In this document: piece after piece, positions 17,819 through 37,872 of the stretch | Numbering within the stretch: position 1 is the stretch's first letter | How the letters are laid out: every line of letters begins with the position of its first letter | Source of the DNA: a virus | Strand: one strand, 5' to 3' | DNA: 47,486 nt | Virus record (IMG/VR): IMGVR_UViG_3300008262_000089 | Location: 1 to 47,486 of that record | Notes under the pieces: generated by a model | Database searches by the model: none | Seen by the model: the letters and a program-made list of their open reading frames with translations, nothing else | Told to the model about the DNA's origin: nothing | Program-made: the position numbers and the translations under genes

Positions 17819-17882
17819 GTTCACATAGGGAATGAATCACTTCGATTCTCCCGGTTTCTTTTACTTTTTTAAGGAGGATGCG

Positions 17883-18092
17883 ATGTCTGATAAGAAGCAA
17901 GCTACCGCAACTAACACCGAAGACCGCAAGAGCAATGGCAACAGCATTTTGCTGCGTATGAGTCCTGTTCTGGCCGATGCTCTTCGGACTATTTCCAAGC
18001 GTGAAGAGCGCACTTTGACTACCATCATGTCCCGTGCGTTCAAGGACTACATCAAGACCAACCATCCTGATATTAAGTCCGATATTGAGTAA
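17883..18092 (+). CDS. ribbon-helix-helix (Arc/CopG-like) DNA-binding protein
   Basis: 69 aa, AAGGAGG at 5-6 nt. A disordered polar N-terminus (20 residues), then a strand (SILLRMSP) and two helices (VLADALRTISKREERTLTTIMSRAFKDYIKT), the classical RHH layout. It would dimerise and bind operators; a candidate regulator of the downstream tRNA/ATPase region. G+C content is noticeably higher than in nearby genes. Confidence 0.7.
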   Translation: MSDKKQATATNTEDRKSNGNSILLRMSPVLADALRTISKREERTLTTIMSRAFKDYIKTNHPDIKSDIE

Positions 18093-18106: not shown

Positions 18107-18155
18107 GTTTTCAAGTCCCTAGTCAATTTGTAAGTTGACTAGGGACATTGAAAAC
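18107..18155 (+). other. long RNA hairpin upstream of the tRNA
   Basis: A 20-bp stem: 18107-18126 pairs with 18135-18155, with one bulged A at 18147 and an 8-nt loop. No T run follows, so it is more likely an RNase III-type processing site or a transcript-stabilising structure than an intrinsic terminator. It ends 18 nt before the tRNA. Confidence 0.7.
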
Positions 18156-18173
18156 CTAGAATAGAAGAGATAG

Positions 18174-18442
18174 GCCCTCATAGCTCAATGGAAGAGCAAC
18201 AGCCTTCAAAAGGAGCGTTATAAGAGAAATCTTATAATGGATCGTGTCAAATTCGGTGAATCCTTAACTGGTAACGCCGAGCCAAGCCCGGAAACGGGAA
18301 GGTGTAGAGACTGAACGGCACGGACCTGAACAGATAATGCTGAAGGTCAAGACACAGTCCAGACCACGAACCCACATGGGGCGGTGAAAACCGTAGTGGT
18401 ATGCTAAGCTGTAGGTTACAGGTTCGAGTCCTGTTGAGGGTA
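18174..18442 (+). tRNA. tRNA-Arg(UCU), interrupted by a group I intron
   Basis: Exons are 18174-18206 and 18404-18442. Acceptor GCCCTCA/TGAGGGT (first pair G-U), D stem GCTC/GAGC, anticodon stem ACAGC/GCTGT, variable loop AGGTT, T stem ACAGG/CCTGT with TTCGAGT loop, discriminator A. CCA is not encoded. After splicing the anticodon loop is CTTCTAA, identical to that of E. coli tRNA-Arg(UCU); the splice lies between U34 and C35. It reads AGA, a frequent Arg codon in this window. The promoter is probably at 17790. Confidence 0.93.
18207..18403 (+). other. group I intron (IC3-like, 197 nt, no ORF)
   Basis: P1: exon CUU pairs with GAG at 18213-18215 including U-G at the splice site, extended by C207-G212 with an AAAA loop. 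P2: 18218-18224/18231-18237. P6: CCCG-GAAA-CGGG (18287-18298). The R and S regions AGAGACTGAACGG and AAGACACAGTCC resemble the Anabaena tRNA-Leu intron. P8: GACCT/AGGTC (18323-18327/18344-18348). P9: ACCAC/GTGGT. The last base is G, as required. No homing endonuclease is encoded. Expected to self-splice. Confidence 0.92.
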
Positions 18443-18512: not shown

Positions 18513-19964
18513 ATGCAGTATCTGAAGATTGAAAATGTTGGCGTTTGTCCTACTGAAGGTTTCACCATTTTTGGTGCGTCTTCTAAATCTGAAAATACCG
18601 ATCCGAATATTATTGGCACATTTGGCTCTGGTGCAAAGCATGGCATTTCTCTTGCCTTGCGTCAGGGTTTGATGCCTGTTGTATATTGCGGTAAAGTTCG
18701 TCTGGCCTTTTACACTAAGCCTCTCAAGATTAAAGGTGTTTCTGGAGAAGCGGTTCACCAGCAACTGTGCGTTAAGATTTCTGGTCAAACTGAAGATAAC
18801 AAGACGATCAATCAAGATCGTGAATTGGATCATACTCTTTCTTATGGCAATAAAGATTGGAATGAGCTTTCTTTGGCTCTGCGTGAGTTTGTTTCAAATG
18901 CAATCGATGCTTGCTACGAGCAGGGATTGTCTCCAGACTCCATGAGTGTTGAGTTGGTGGAGGAGAATCAAGTTCGTGCCAAGGGTGGTACAACTCGCAT
19001 TTTTGTTCCAGCTACCATGGATGTCATGCGTTTTCATCAAGAAATTGGCAAGTGGTTTCTTCACTTTAGTGAACCACAAAGCATGGAAAATAAGTTGCTT
19101 TTCAAAAAGAATCGAAATTGCGTTGATAGTTCAGGTAACAAAAAGTCTACTGCCGTAATCTACCGCCGTGGTGTGAGGGTGCGGGAGTTCACTTCTTCTG
19201 ATATTCCCAGTCTTTTTGATTATAACATCCCTGATTTGCCAATCGATGAATCCAGAACTATCGATGACTGGAAGGCTAAGTTTGAGTGTGGTCAAGCTTT
19301 GGCGCAAACGGAAGACCCAACTGTTCCTACTTTGATGTTTCAAAAGCTTGTGAAGAATGAGAGTTGTTGGGAACTGGAGCAAGATGGATTTGCGCTGACT
19401 TACTGCATTTCTGATAAACAAAAGAAACAGCAGATATGGCAAAATGCTTTCTTTGCAGTTTGTGGTAAGAATGCAGTCATCACCACTAGTGCTCTTGCTG
19501 ATCGTTGCAAGGAAAAAGGCTACACACCTATCGTGCTATCAAACGCACAGAGTGGATTTCAGAAGTTTTTGAAAGAAATGAATATTCTTTCTGATGTGGA
19601 TGTTTTGACTGCTAATGATTTGAATGGTCGCAAGATTTTTGCTCCTTCCTTGGCTGTTACCCAAGCCCTTAATTGGGTCTGGGAAAAGCTGGAGAGCATT
19701 GATATGACCTACAATCGGCCAAAACCTGAACTTCGTTGCTTTCGTCAGCTGACGGAAGCATCTTCCATGACATTTGGTTACTGGCTCGACGGAACGATTT
19801 ACATCAATGAGGATATTTCGCAGAATAGTAATAACTCTTTGATGGATACCATGGTTGAGGAAGTAGCGCATCACATTACCAAGGCAACAGATGGTAGTCG
19901 TGATTTTGCCAACTTCCTGATCCGCATGTCTGTTGAACTTGCGAAGTCTACCGACCCCAAGTAA
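18513..19964 (+). CDS. GHKL-like ATPase with C-terminal EExxHH motif
   Basis: 483 aa, AAAGGAG at 7 nt. GTFGSGAKHG at 35-44 resembles the glycine-rich ATP lid, and LREFVSNAIDA at 123-133 (E125, N129, D132) resembles the N-box of Hsp90/MutL/histidine-kinase-type ATPases. The glycine motif precedes the N-box, the reverse of the normal order, so the fold may be circularly permuted. Near the C-terminus VEEVAHHITKATDGSRDF (about 448) resembles the metal site of small metalloprotease-like domains. It starts a module with AAA+ and VWA genes. Function unknown; a client-remodelling role is inference. Confidence 0.55.
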   Translation: MQYLKIENVGVCPTEGFTIFGASSKSENTDPNIIGTFGSGAKHGISLALRQGLMPVVYCGKVRLAFYTKPLKIKGVSGEAVHQQLCVKISGQTEDNKTINQDRELDHTLSYGNKDWNELSLALREFVSNAIDACYEQGLSPDSMSVELVEENQVRAKGGTTRIFVPATMDVMRFHQEIGKWFLHFSEPQSMENKLLFKKNRNCVDSSGNKKSTAVIYRRGVRVREFTSSDIPSLFDYNIPDLPIDESRTIDDWKAKFECGQALAQTEDPTVPTLMFQKLVKNESCWELEQDGFALTYCISDKQKKQQIWQNAFFAVCGKNAVITTSALADRCKEKGYTPIVLSNAQSGFQKFLKEMNILSDVDVLTANDLNGRKIFAPSLAVTQALNWVWEKLESIDMTYNRPKPELRCFRQLTEASSMTFGYWLDGTIYINEDISQNSNNSLMDTMVEEVAHHITKATDGSRDFANFLIRMSVELAKSTDPK

Positions 19965-20029: not shown

Positions 20030-21121
20030 ATGTCTAGAAGGAAGTCACCAGAAGCTTTGTACATCGAATCCAAGCTTAAAAATGATCACAATCTACGATA
20101 TGCCGATCTGGTAAAAATGCCAGACTACGCTTATGATATCGAAAATGCATATTTCAATACTGTCAAAAGTCGTTTTAGAAAGGTGACGGCTGAAAAAGCT
20201 TTTGCTGTGGTGCCACAAGTTGCAGAATTTGACTCAGAGGATGTAAGTGACTTTGAGCCAGAGTATGATGAGCAGGCATCCAAGTTGATTCCATCTCTTG
20301 ACCCGTATTTTGCAATCACAGAAGAGGGCAATAATTTTATTGGGCTTGTGCAGTCAATGAGCAGGGTCAACAATTTAAATATTAGACTGGTTGGTCCAGC
20401 AGGTTGTGGCAAAACCAGCTTTGCAACACAATACGCTGCAAAAAATAACTATCCTTGTTTGATTATGGACTGTGCTAATGTTCGAGAGCCTAGAGATTGG
20501 TTCGGATATCGAACATTTGATCCAGTTACTAAAGAAATTGTCTGGCATGAGAGTCTCTTTGTTAAGATGGTTGAAACTGCACATAGTGTTATTGTTCTCG
20601 ATGAGCTTAACCGTGTGTCTCCGTTGGTGATCAATACGCTGATTCCTTTGCTTGACCATCGTCGCTCTACTTATCTTGAGGAAGCTGGCAAGAACATCAG
20701 TTGTGCTGAAGGTGTTACATTCTGGGCTCCAATCAACGAAGGCAGTCAGTTTACCGGAACGATTGCTCTTGATGAAGCAATCTCTGATAGATTTGGTCTT
20801 GTTATGGAGTGTAAATTTTTGCCATCAATTGAAGAAAAGCTGGTTTTGCATAAAAAGACTGGTTTGGAGGAATCAGTTTGTGAAAAACTTGTTGATATTG
20901 CAAATCAAGTAAGAATCAAATCACAGATGGATTCAGTTGATAGTTACAGCAAGCCTATTTCTACACGAATGCTTGAGAATGCTGCAAGAGCTTTCAAAAA
21001 GCAGGGGGTGAAGTCTTTGCAATTTACTCTTTTGAACCACTTCAGTTCGGCTGGTGGTGCTGCGAGTGAGAGGAATAATTTGAGAACCCTGCTTGTTGGC
21101 AAATTCGGACTACTTTCATAA
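20030..21121 (+). CDS. MoxR/CobS-type AAA+ ATPase
   Basis: 363 aa, AAAGGAG at 5 nt. Walker A GPAGCGKTS at 122-130, Walker B VIVLDE at 187-192 followed by LNRV, a sensor-like FWAPINE (ATxN-type) near 236-242, and ISDRFG (arginine-finger region). The N-terminal ~90 residues are acidic. CobS/MoxR ATPases work as hexamers with a VWA partner to load metals or remodel proteins; that partner is the next gene, 12 nt downstream. CobS-like genes are known in T4-like phages, where cobalamin synthesis is unlikely to be the role. Confidence 0.85.
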   Translation: MSRRKSPEALYIESKLKNDHNLRYADLVKMPDYAYDIENAYFNTVKSRFRKVTAEKAFAVVPQVAEFDSEDVSDFEPEYDEQASKLIPSLDPYFAITEEGNNFIGLVQSMSRVNNLNIRLVGPAGCGKTSFATQYAAKNNYPCLIMDCANVREPRDWFGYRTFDPVTKEIVWHESLFVKMVETAHSVIVLDELNRVSPLVINTLIPLLDHRRSTYLEEAGKNISCAEGVTFWAPINEGSQFTGTIALDEAISDRFGLVMECKFLPSIEEKLVLHKKTGLEESVCEKLVDIANQVRIKSQMDSVDSYSKPISTRMLENAARAFKKQGVKSLQFTLLNHFSSAGGAASERNNLRTLLVGKFGLLS

Positions 21122-21133
21122 TAAGGAGAATTT

Positions 21134-23038
21134 ATGAGCAGCAAAACTAATCTGTTTGATGACAGTTGGGAGTATGAAGATGATGATGCTTACTTCTACG
21201 GAAAGAACACGGAAGTAAGCCATACACCATGGTCTGTTTATAACCCAATTAAATCAACTAGTGAATATTTAAGGCAAAGCTCTGGGTATGATGATAGGTA
21301 TTTCAAAGACAGCCTTCATCAGACCGAAGAAGATTTGCATAAGACTTTGAAGGAACTAAACAAAACAATCAATTTGACTGCAAATAGTTCAGACGGATAC
21401 GAGAAATGTCTATGCGTTAAATATAGTAACGGCAAAGTTACAAATGATTTGTTGTCAGATGTTCTTTATGTCTCTCCAGATAGTTTGCTGGACGAGGATA
21501 TGAAGTTAATTGACAAGGATCAGAAGTATTTTGATGTCCTAGACGGGTTGAATGGTCAGGCCTTGCTTTGTTCTTTTATTAAGAAGAGTATTCATGTTGA
21601 TTCAGCATTGCAGTTCAAGAATTCCGATTCTTGGGCTGTGCGTAATATTTTTATGACAGATTTGCAGTCTGGTGCAAGCAATGAAGTCTTTTCAAAATGG
21701 CCCGGTTTTTTGAGTTATGTAACTCAACAAATGGTGGTGTTTGGACAACAAAAGAAAAAGATAGAGGAGAATTTAGTATCAAATATTGCTAAAGGATCAG
21801 TTGAGTTCGATGACATTGTAGAGTTACTTTGTTTCAATAGATTAAGTCCAGAAAAAATTGATTATTATATTTTTCCACAAGAATTTAGAGACAAGATCGA
21901 TGAAGTTGATACACATTTTAATGACAGATTAAATTCATTTGTTACAGACCAATATAAGTTTGATCGTGCGGTCAACTTGTATCAAGACATGCTCGAAATG
22001 TTAGAGCCTAGTGAAACTCAAAAATCGACTATCACATTGAATGATATTACGATAGAAACAAACAATTCTGCCAAAGATAGGCCTTTGACTGGTGGGGATG
22101 CTTATAACAACAATATTTCAATTCCCGGAAATATTATTAGTAGCTCTCTCGATCACAACAAGAATCTTAGAGATAGGACAAAGTCTTTTGATGATCATTT
22201 GAAATCACCAGTCTACAACAAAGATAACTATTTGACACATTTGAGCTATAAGCTTGTTGTTCCAGCTGTAAATACAGAAACTATTGAAGCATACAAGAAG
22301 ATTGTTCATGCACATAAGAAATCTATTAAAGATTTAGAAACTTCTTTTATGTTTAGAAACAATGTTAACCAAACTTTTACTTACGGCACTAACTCTGGAG
22401 ACCTTGACGATAATAGTTTTTACAAAACTTTTCTTGGAGAGCATGACAAAATTTATTATCAAAAGGATTTAGTATCTAGAAAAAAATATCATGTAAGTAT
22501 TGCTCTAGATCAAACTGGCTCGATGGCTGGCAGCATGAGAGAAGCAGCAACTTTGGCAATAATTATGGCTGAAGCTTTGAAGAAAATAAAAGATGTAGAT
22601 TATTCAATTTATGGTTTTAACACGGGTACAGATGTAGAAACCCATGTGTATAAAGATCATAACTATAACAAGACAGAGGCTTTGTCAGAAATATTGGCAT
22701 CTGGCAATACAGCTATGGGGTATCACTTGTGTGCAATTGCAGATAAGATTATTACACAAAATCCGTTTGTTGAAAACAAGATATTGTTTATGATTACGGA
22801 TGGTGAGCCAACACATGGATCGGTTGGTAAAAATCCCGTTGAATTAACCGCTTATGCAGTTGAAAAGGCAAGAAAAGCTGGGGTTAAGGTTTATGGTATC
22901 GGAGTTCACAACGCTTTTTCAGAGCAAACGGGCAAGGCGTTGTTTGGAGCAGGCAATTTCGCAGTTATTCAGGGTATAAAGGGTACCTTGCCATTATTAA
23001 GAAATAAATTGGCAACCTTCTTAAAAAGGGTTGCCTAA
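21134..23038 (+). CDS. VWA (CobT-like) partner of the AAA+ ATPase
   Basis: 634 aa, AAGGAG at about 6 nt. The C-terminal ~180 residues form a von Willebrand A domain: ALDQTGSMAGS (about 455-465) as MIDAS with Thr in place of the first Ser, and MITDGEPTHG near 553-562 supplying the second Asp. The N-terminal 400 residues are acidic and helical. This is the standard layout of CobT-like partners of MoxR/CobS ATPases. Translationally close to the AAA+ gene, so a complex is expected. Confidence 0.8.
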   Translation: MSSKTNLFDDSWEYEDDDAYFYGKNTEVSHTPWSVYNPIKSTSEYLRQSSGYDDRYFKDSLHQTEEDLHKTLKELNKTINLTANSSDGYEKCLCVKYSNGKVTNDLLSDVLYVSPDSLLDEDMKLIDKDQKYFDVLDGLNGQALLCSFIKKSIHVDSALQFKNSDSWAVRNIFMTDLQSGASNEVFSKWPGFLSYVTQQMVVFGQQKKKIEENLVSNIAKGSVEFDDIVELLCFNRLSPEKIDYYIFPQEFRDKIDEVDTHFNDRLNSFVTDQYKFDRAVNLYQDMLEMLEPSETQKSTITLNDITIETNNSAKDRPLTGGDAYNNNISIPGNIISSSLDHNKNLRDRTKSFDDHLKSPVYNKDNYLTHLSYKLVVPAVNTETIEAYKKIVHAHKKSIKDLETSFMFRNNVNQTFTYGTNSGDLDDNSFYKTFLGEHDKIYYQKDLVSRKKYHVSIALDQTGSMAGSMREAATLAIIMAEALKKIKDVDYSIYGFNTGTDVETHVYKDHNYNKTEALSEILASGNTAMGYHLCAIADKIITQNPFVENKILFMITDGEPTHGSVGKNPVELTAYAVEKARKAGVKVYGIGVHNAFSEQTGKALFGAGNFAVIQGIKGTLPLLRNKLATFLKRVA

Positions 23039-36758: not shown

Positions 36759-36786
36759 TTTGACTTAGGCTTTTGGAGATCAAGTC

Positions 36787-37872
36787 ATTTTTACTCTTGA
36801 AAAAGCATGGCAAGCATTAGAAGGCAGAAAAGAATTTGCCATCGTTGAAACTTATAACACTATAACTATTGATTATATTGTAATATCAGATGATACATTC
36901 TCCGATGATGAGTTTGGTCGTATTCGAAGAAACTTTCGAGGAGTTGTTTTCAACAAGAAGACAGGAGAAATAATCAGTCTTCCGTTTCACAAGTTTTTTA
37001 ATCTCAATCAGACAGTAGAAACTCAATTCCATTTGCACAAACACAAAAAAGCGTATGTTTTTGAAAAACTTGATGGGAGCATGATTCATTTTTTCAGGAT
37101 GCCTGACGGTAGCGTCACATGCTCAACATGTCGGTCAACAAACTCTATTCAGGCAAAACAAGCAAAAGAATTTGCATTCAACAATGCTTATCTATTGAAT
37201 AAGATTGTGCAAAGCATAGATTATGGGTTTACTCCAATTTTTGAATGGGTAGCCCCGCATAATCAAATAGTGTGCCATTATAAAAATCCGAGACTTGTTT
37301 ACCTCAATTCTAGGAATAGATCAACCGGAGATTATTTTTTTGAGGAGAAGTATGCAGACAAAGCTGTGCGGTATGACATAGAATTTTCGGATATTCTGAA
37401 TCACATAAACGGAACTGAAATGGAAGGTTATGTTTGTCATTTAAGCTGTGGGACTATACTGAAGGTAAAAACACCATGGTATTTAACTAGGCATCGTGCT
37501 GTTGACATAATGATGAGCCCTAAGTACAAGGTTATGGACTTAGCATTACAGGGTTGTCTGGATGATGTAATTTCAAATGCTCCTGATATGCATAAGCAGG
37601 TTTTGATGGATATTGATTCTGTTGTAAAAAATGATGTAGTAGAGTTTCATGCTGCATTAATTGAAGAGTATAGTTATTTGACAAGAAATCTGGAAATGAA
37701 CGATACTGCATCCTGTAAAAAACAAGTTGCATCAGCATGTCAAGCAAGCCCAAATTTTCCGGCTATGATGATGTTGTATCAAAATAAAGATACAAAAAGT
37801 TTCGTGAGTAAAAAATTATATGAAAAATATAAATCTTTGTACCCCAATAAACTGTTAAATTCTGAAACATGA
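36787..37872 (+). CDS. T4 Rnl1-type RNA ligase with apparent AUU start
   Basis: 361 aa if begun at ATT 36787, which has GGAG at 8-nt spacing; the frame is closed just upstream (TAG) and no ATG/GTG lies in the conserved N-terminus. Family segments: LEGRKEFAIVE, RRNFRGVVFNKKTG, LPFHKFFNLNQ, motif I EKLDGS (K94), motif IIIa PIFEWVAPHNQIV, motif IV MEGYV, motif V KVKTPWY. T4 Rnl1 has 374 residues, so size fits. Rnl1 reseals tRNA cut by host anticodon nucleases. A non-AUG start or a sequencing/frameshift lesion are the two readings. Stop overlaps the next ATG (ATGA). Confidence 0.85.
   Translation: MFTLEKAWQALEGRKEFAIVETYNTITIDYIVISDDTFSDDEFGRIRRNFRGVVFNKKTGEIISLPFHKFFNLNQTVETQFHLHKHKKAYVFEKLDGSMIHFFRMPDGSVTCSTCRSTNSIQAKQAKEFAFNNAYLLNKIVQSIDYGFTPIFEWVAPHNQIVCHYKNPRLVYLNSRNRSTGDYFFEEKYADKAVRYDIEFSDILNHINGTEMEGYVCHLSCGTILKVKTPWYLTRHRAVDIMMSPKYKVMDLALQGCLDDVISNAPDMHKQVLMDIDSVVKNDVVEFHAALIEEYSYLTRNLEMNDTASCKKQVASACQASPNFPAMMMLYQNKDTKSFVSKKLYEKYKSLYPNKLLNSET

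Follow-up and report, generated by a model that had tools for sequence, protein, structure and literature searches.

Type IC3 introns split the tRNA-Leu(UAA) genes of cyanobacteria and plastids, and the introns of Azoarcus tRNA-Ile(CAU) and Agrobacterium tRNA-Arg(CCU) are inserted after position 36. The intron described here interrupts a tRNA-Arg(UCU) gene in a 47,486-base stretch of viral DNA (the window, by which we mean the whole stretch analyzed), and like the Azoarcus and Agrobacterium examples it is small and endonuclease-free. With tRNA-Leu(UAA) introns it shares the site after U34, the guide GAG, and core sequence (in the viral-contig, phage, and plasmid Leu introns compared), but the host tRNA and the 3' exon are different. 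Group I ribozymes also occur in phages such as T4, SPO1, Twort, and the Jug phages, where, unlike here, they sit in protein genes and often carry homing endonucleases (available parts of PMC3984707 and PMC12363816). According to the available part of a 2014 review, phage introns observed to that date were all in protein-coding genes despite the many tRNA genes of phages (PMC3984707).

Joining the 5' exon (18174–18206, plus strand, ending C32-U33-U34) to the 3' exon (18404–18442, plus strand, beginning C35-U36-A37-A38) gives a 72-nt tRNA, called tRNA-Arg(tct) by ARAGORN, with all four stems paired and the anticodon loop CUUCUAA (CTTCTAA in the DNA). The initial annotation had proposed a cloverleaf with this standard loop from these exons; its coordinates were exact, and ARAGORN returned a clean tRNA-Arg(UCU) from the spliced sequence. 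As in bacterial-type tRNA introns, the insertion point is in the anticodon loop, here inside the anticodon itself, and the tRNA is otherwise intact. CCA is not encoded at the 3' end of the exon. By eye, the tRNA has A20 and C35, both of which are read by the E. coli arginyl-tRNA synthetase, and it is probably charged with arginine. On the unspliced window, ARAGORN in default mode called a tRNA-Ser(gct) from the 3' part and in intron mode a Leu(caa) with a different junction; both calls are superseded by the spliced tRNA-Arg(UCU). The Rfam tRNA model (RF00005) matches the 3' part of the split gene only.

The insert at 18207–18403 (197 nt, plus strand, terminal G18403) is a complete small group I intron. 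An Rfam search matched a single general group I model, RF00028, at 18196–18380 with 51.4 bits, barely above the gathering score of 50. Because this margin was thin, a covariance model (R1) was built from 39 other tRNA introns with the window left out. R1 matches 18196–18411 with 177.4 bits (E 3e-49), the sole match in the window at E values up to 10. The intron RNA folds to −66.2 kcal/mol against a shuffle mean of −46.95 (z −4.58), and none of 200 shuffles was as low. No endonuclease frame occurs in the intron, where the longest stop-free stretch in six frames is 51 codons, in agreement with the initial annotation. The group I fold suffices to explain the inserted sequence, and an archaeal-type intron with a bulge-helix-bulge cut by an endonuclease need not be invoked. 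A relationship to bacterial tRNA introns is seen in a shared alignment and tree and in 74.8% identity to the closest bacterial Arg intron compared. The earlier description of a phage tRNA-Arg(UCU) split by a group I intron of bacterial tRNA type with a terminal G stands.

A P1–P9 structure was written from the window sequence and then counted on 51 aligned introns including the window's own; the alignment keeps one row (L011) with a wrong junction. Across these rows, 89.1% of the cells of the named structure pair, compared to 29.7%–44.1% when partners are slid by one to three columns. Changes on both sides are found for 43 of 54 pairs, and none of 500 shuffles scored as high on any of five measures. 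All helices are on the plus strand. P1 (18204–18215) pairs C32-U33-U34 (18204–18206) with the guide GAG (18213–18215) and places U34·G18213 at the splice site; C18207 can also pair with G18212, although this pair of the first intron base is paired in only 46.0% of the rows. P2 is a hairpin of nine pairs with a GAAA loop (18217–18238; 70.4% of cells paired). P3 (18243–18248 with 18317–18322) is paired in 98.4% of cells, and all six of its pairs change on both sides. P4 (18252–18256 with 18277–18281; 96.5%) encloses P5 (18262–18263 with 18270–18271; 98.0%), and is followed in the written structure and alignment count by P6 (18282–18283 with 18301–18302) and P6a (18287–18290 with 18295–18298), which bears a GAAA loop. 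P7 (18309–18313 with 18355–18359), presumably the seat of the guanosine site, is paired in all 51 rows, with four of its five pairs invariant. P8 (18323–18327 with 18344–18348) is paired in 83.9% of cells, and four of its five pairs change on both sides. P9 (18363–18367 with 18396–18400) and the GAAA-capped P9b (18382–18385 with 18390–18393) are paired in 98.0% and 98.5% of cells, respectively, and P9a (18371–18373 with 18378–18380) has one pair at 92.2% and two at 65.6%. P2 and P9a are poorly conserved as pairs in the 51 rows, and the P10 pairing to the 3' exon seems, on visual inspection, to be short (C-G, U-A). The ordered helices read earlier from the window, among them P1 with U·G at the 5' splice site, P8, and P9, are all present with covariation. 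The GAAA-capped P6 of that reading corresponds to P6a, and P2 is GAAA-capped likewise.

At a fixed alignment column, 47 of the 51 rows place a G across from the final U of the exon and form two further pairs. Three of the four exceptions (L010, L161, and L171) pair by eye once the column is shifted by one, and the fourth, L011, has a guide GCA that fits tRNA-Asn(GUU). Five exon sequences are represented, with guide-exon sets GAG/CUU, GGG/CCU, GGU/ACU, GCA/UGU, and GGA/UCU. Because guide and exon are separate stretches, this covariation is the strongest sign at the sequence level that the predicted splice sites work. A decayed intron in a tRNA pseudogene that no longer splices might have produced the low Rfam score (51.4 bits) and the long end branch of the window's intron on the tree described below (0.49). 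Such decay is very improbable, as P3, P4, P6, P7, P8, and P9 are complete, the guide matches the exon, the terminal G and the tRNA are intact, and the fit to R1 is strong.

We therefore favor, with a probability of roughly 0.88, a tRNA intron that lacks an endonuclease and is competent to splice, in a gene providing the tRNA for AGA, which is the main arginine codon of the phage. Under this reading, the locus would produce a pre-tRNA-Arg(UCU) whose 197-nt intron folds on itself, the guide holding C32-U33-U34 of the 5' exon with the U·G pair at the splice site. By analogy with established group I introns, an outside guanosine seated in P7 would cut at the 5' splice site, and U34 would then attack after the terminal G18403 and be joined to C35. 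We infer that splicing of this kind happens in this RNA. The product would be a tRNA for AGA (and AGG by wobble) to which an enzyme must add CCA. The intron itself is probably a well-kept passenger, mobile now or formerly, and would be one member of a large phage tRNA-intron family.

Codon use in the window was counted over 43 mechanically called ORFs. AGA makes up 264 of 490 arginine codons (54%, 20.3 per 1000) and AGG 66, or 330 of 490 for the two. The flanking genes use mostly CGN (18 CGN, 1 AGA, and 1 AGG in 18513–19964; 6 CGN and 0 AGA in 17883–18092). Despite these CGN-rich neighbors, codon supply is a fitting role for a phage-encoded tRNA that reads the main arginine codon.

Three other IMG/VR contigs, of 17,614, 39,757, and 145,015 bases, share without a single difference the 301-base stretch that holds the gene. 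A flank-gene search for intron-free alleles found none; it recovered only these three contigs, each 100% identical. The 145,015-base contig, from the same phage, contains one tRNA match (RF00005, to the 3' part of this gene) and one R1 match. This contig is probably a fragment, so further tRNA genes may exist in the phage. It has no match to the terminase families PF03237 or PF17289 of Pfam, and the phage nature of the contig therefore rests on the IMG/VR record, a virion structural protein, and phage-type DNA polymerase. The virion protein (phrog_1645, head-and-packaging) is 35.7%–43.4% identical to cyanophage and other phage proteins among the 15 relatives listed, and the best-listed relative of one of the DNA polymerase families present is in a 484-kb uncultured phage.

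The tRNA gene is preceded by an Arc-like repressor gene (17832–18092; a weak match, E 0.00013) and followed by an ORF without assigned function (18513–19964) and a MoxR-like AAA ATPase (AAA_5, CbbQ_C) adjoining a VWA protein (20030–23038). A MoxR ATPase has been noted in jumbo phages (available part of PMC7824862). A possible promoter, TTGACT-16-TAGAAT (18135–18162, plus strand; 10/12), has a second box that ends 11 bases before the tRNA; because the scan found one such candidate in the region and 1.8 were expected from shuffles, it is no evidence by itself. A perfect 12-base inverted repeat, GTCCCTAGTCAA...TTGACTAGGGAC (18115–18146), lies between the Arc-like repressor gene and the tRNA, overlaps the possible −35 box, and could be an operator.

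In T4, an enzyme of the RNA ligase 1 type mends tRNA that has been cut by anticodon nuclease. The same phage as the split gene encodes an RNA ligase of the T4 RNA ligase 1 family with a KLDGS motif, possibly for tRNA repair (about 36769–37872, plus strand; PF09511 with 29.8 bits in the window ORF and 58.3 bits in the 145-kb contig). This ligase and the position of the split inside the anticodon would suit an intron kept for use, either hiding the anticodon from host anticodon nucleases until splicing or delaying the tRNA until a set stage of infection, and a role of phage tRNAs against host enzymes that cut tRNA has been proposed (available part of PMC10264068). We regard such a use as unlikely: the mature tRNA loop is ordinary, so protection would end on splicing, and the guide sequence alone explains the choice of site. 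A coupling of tRNA supply to GTP level or infection stage through splicing, as suggested in the initial annotation, would be a further, speculative use.

We searched a genome set of 84,980 species with a 3'-junction pattern for tRNA-Arg(UCU) and found at least 117 bacterial stretches, 106 of which could be parsed as tRNA-Arg(UCU) split at CUU/CUAAG (11 could not). Taxa among the 80 stretches listed of the 117 include Bacillaceae, Thermoactinomycetaceae, Gammaproteobacteria, and Cytophagales. These introns resemble the window's in the tRNA, the U34/C35 site, and the guide GAG (in the loci listed), and also in the 3' end GTGGTA-N-G, an end that the search pattern demanded. They differ in lying on bacterial genome contigs, in length (202–690 nt among the 106 parsed), and in tree position, 61 of 71 standing apart from phage introns. 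Introns in tRNA-Arg(UCU) have also been reported for Thiomargarita Bud S10 and BOGUAY (available part of PMC4853749). With this report and at least 106 bacterial stretches split at the same site, the rarity of tRNA-Arg(UCU) introns implied by the initial annotation was not confirmed.

Viral sequences were scanned with three DNA patterns of the intron core, and all counts from this survey are lower bounds. ARAGORN intron mode gave wrong junctions (152 of 225 sites), so splice sites were enumerated with exons ending in T and introns ending in G, and the best tRNA was kept. Since the search demanded both, the T before the intron and the terminal G in these relatives are not independent evidence. 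The patterns matched at least 225 sites, of which 186 were unique; 112 of these yielded a tRNA, in 109 of which the junction fell well within the molecule, and 94 were accepted (junction 0–3 bases into the anticodon, score above 112 and within 2.5 of the best, length 150–320). Three rounds of dinucleotide-shuffled flanks at the 186 unique sites yielded no junction-spanning tRNA. The remaining 92 unique sites are not all negatives and include protein-gene introns and introns longer than 320 nt with inserted sequence. Of the accepted split tRNA genes, at least 94, 92 are from viral contigs, one is from a plasmid (L014), and one is from a cultured phage (L017); the implied rarity of such introns was thus not supported among viral contigs either. 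The viral-contig status of most loci is taken from the record; terminase PF17289 was found in one of seven records tried.

As called, the accepted genes (at least 94) comprise 57 Leu(UAA), 10 Arg(UCU), 9 Met-type CAU, 6 Lys, 3 Thr, 3 Asn, 3 Arg(CCU), 2 Glu, and 1 Gln. The guide rule rejects L011 as Thr, making it Asn(GUU), and L157 as Lys, making it Leu(UAA), which changes the counts to 58 Leu, 5 Lys, 4 Asn, and 2 Thr. The call of L093 as Met is doubtful, with no guide match in its first 45 nt. A position-free guide test found a match in 92 of 94, but three-base matches arise easily and the test is weak; the fixed-column test was therefore relied on. The 34/35 site is used in 72 of the 94 cases (among the matches listed). 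Among the ten Arg(UCU) cases, which include the window's phage, the site is 34/35 in six, 33/34 in three, and 36/37 in one; the 34/35 group includes a pair of nearly identical copies, L178 and L186. In the three Arg(CCU) cases (L082, L145, and L176) the intron sits after position 36, and these are probably host genes at prophage edges.

Two cultured phages carry split tRNA genes: tRNA-Lys(UUU) with a 238-nt intron in Gordonia phage Daredevil and tRNA-Leu(UAA) with a 278-nt intron in Agrobacterium phage Atu_ph07. The annotation of the relevant stretches lists no tRNA in either. Split tRNA-Leu(UAA) genes were also found in the uncultured huge phages LR756511 and LR756501. Intron matches in the cultured phages HTVC120P, pYD6-A, AD45-P1, and P433.1 (L018, L357, L358, and L360) gave no split tRNA. 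The tRNA-Leu(UAA) intron of LR756511 (L015, 2001–2655) is ~700 nt, with an insert that looks by eye like an HNH endonuclease (ELHHIDGD...CPNCH). An uncultured Autographiviridae phage (KT997847; L016, 1948–2128 and 2657–2837) has two small group I introns in the region of its capsid gene, and R1 matches both.

Among the introns compared, the closest to the window's are a phage Leu intron (L148, 78.2%) and a phage Arg intron (L208, 76.7%); the closest bacterial Arg intron shorter than 330 nt (L230) is 74.8% identical, a narrow gap. A tree was built by quick search from 134 introns over 188 columns, with a program warning of long branches. All of its bacterial rows were collected with a single Arg-specific pattern, which leaves the diversity of bacterial introns undersampled. 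The window's row is left unplaced, in no supported small set, on a long end branch (0.49). Supported branches require at least four label changes among the five phage Arg(UCU) rows with site 34, which lie among Leu, Lys, and other phage introns. In contrast, 61 of the 71 bacterial Arg introns form one set (support 99) without phage rows, where the program again warns of long branches. One viral record of 251 kb (G010), which carries a terminase match, has four R1 matches, leading to Gln(UUG), Arg(UCU), Leu(UAA), and CAU tRNAs. Between the Gln and Arg introns of this record the identity is 90.6%, and neither has a closer relative among those compared.

These patterns, most sharply that of G010, are compatible with a tentative proposal: small group I introns without endonucleases would form a mobile family in phage tRNA genes and spread from one tRNA gene to another as directed by the guide. 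For an intron with the guide GAG, any tRNA with C32-U33-U34 would be a possible target, reached perhaps by reverse splicing; this would include many tRNAs whose anticodon begins with U, and the window's intron would be one such landing. Because the exon CUU is shared, moves between tRNA genes are easy to picture, whether by reverse splicing or by recombination. Alternatively, a bacterial tRNA-Arg(UCU) gene may have brought the intron into the phage already in place, with no move from another phage tRNA gene, a possibility that we hold just as tentatively. In bacteria, introns occupy this site in tRNA-Arg(UCU) genes too, and the spliced tRNA of the window is 92.8% identical over aligned columns to bacterial L297, L305 (Arenicellales), and L326, but phage L208 is equally close (92.8% over aligned columns). 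The window's row belongs to a set of 72 rows, 64 of them bacterial, with weak support (81), whereas the closest introns are from phages, by the narrow gap given above, and the well-supported bacterial set excludes phage rows, subject to the long-branch warning.

Taken alone, the window's intron belongs to a bacterial intron family and is carried by a phage. What seems to be undescribed is the wider class, in which phage tRNA genes of many isotypes contain putatively self-splicing introns. A partial literature search, in which subscription journals were thinly covered and which does not prove absence from print, found no later report of a group I intron in a phage tRNA gene. There is no mention of one in the available parts of PMC12350094, PMC11878797, PMC12363816, PMC10580990, PMC11835236, PMC7162821, PMC7824862, PMC13096335, or PMC13015707, and the word "intron" does not occur in the available parts of PMC7162821 and PMC13015707. 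The sequence evidence would outdate the review statement that known phage group I introns spared tRNA genes (available part of PMC3984707). In the window, ARAGORN with default settings misassigned the split gene and the Rfam tRNA model detected no more than the 3' part, so tRNA genes may be undercounted in phage repertoires and in codon studies. The split genes of Daredevil and Atu_ph07 make splicing in infection directly testable, and the guide-exon pairs across isotypes offer a natural record of endonuclease-free introns changing targets.

Several other elements were identified near or alongside these introns. An abiF RNA (RF03085) match lies just upstream of the split tRNA-Arg(UCU) in related viral contigs (L057, 11857–11893; L178, 959–995), and a 104-kb viral contig has a match to a permuted tmRNA family (RF04321, 118.4 bits; L006, 1074–1391). 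The conjugative plasmid pCTX-M3 (NC_004464.2; L014, 2881–3179) carries a tRNA-Leu(UAA) gene interrupted by a group I intron of 213 nt; a predicted aac(3)-IId resistance gene is about 650 bases away. The window query matches 1,253 plasmid records, 1,249 of them at 60%–80% identity and most from Enterobacterales genera.
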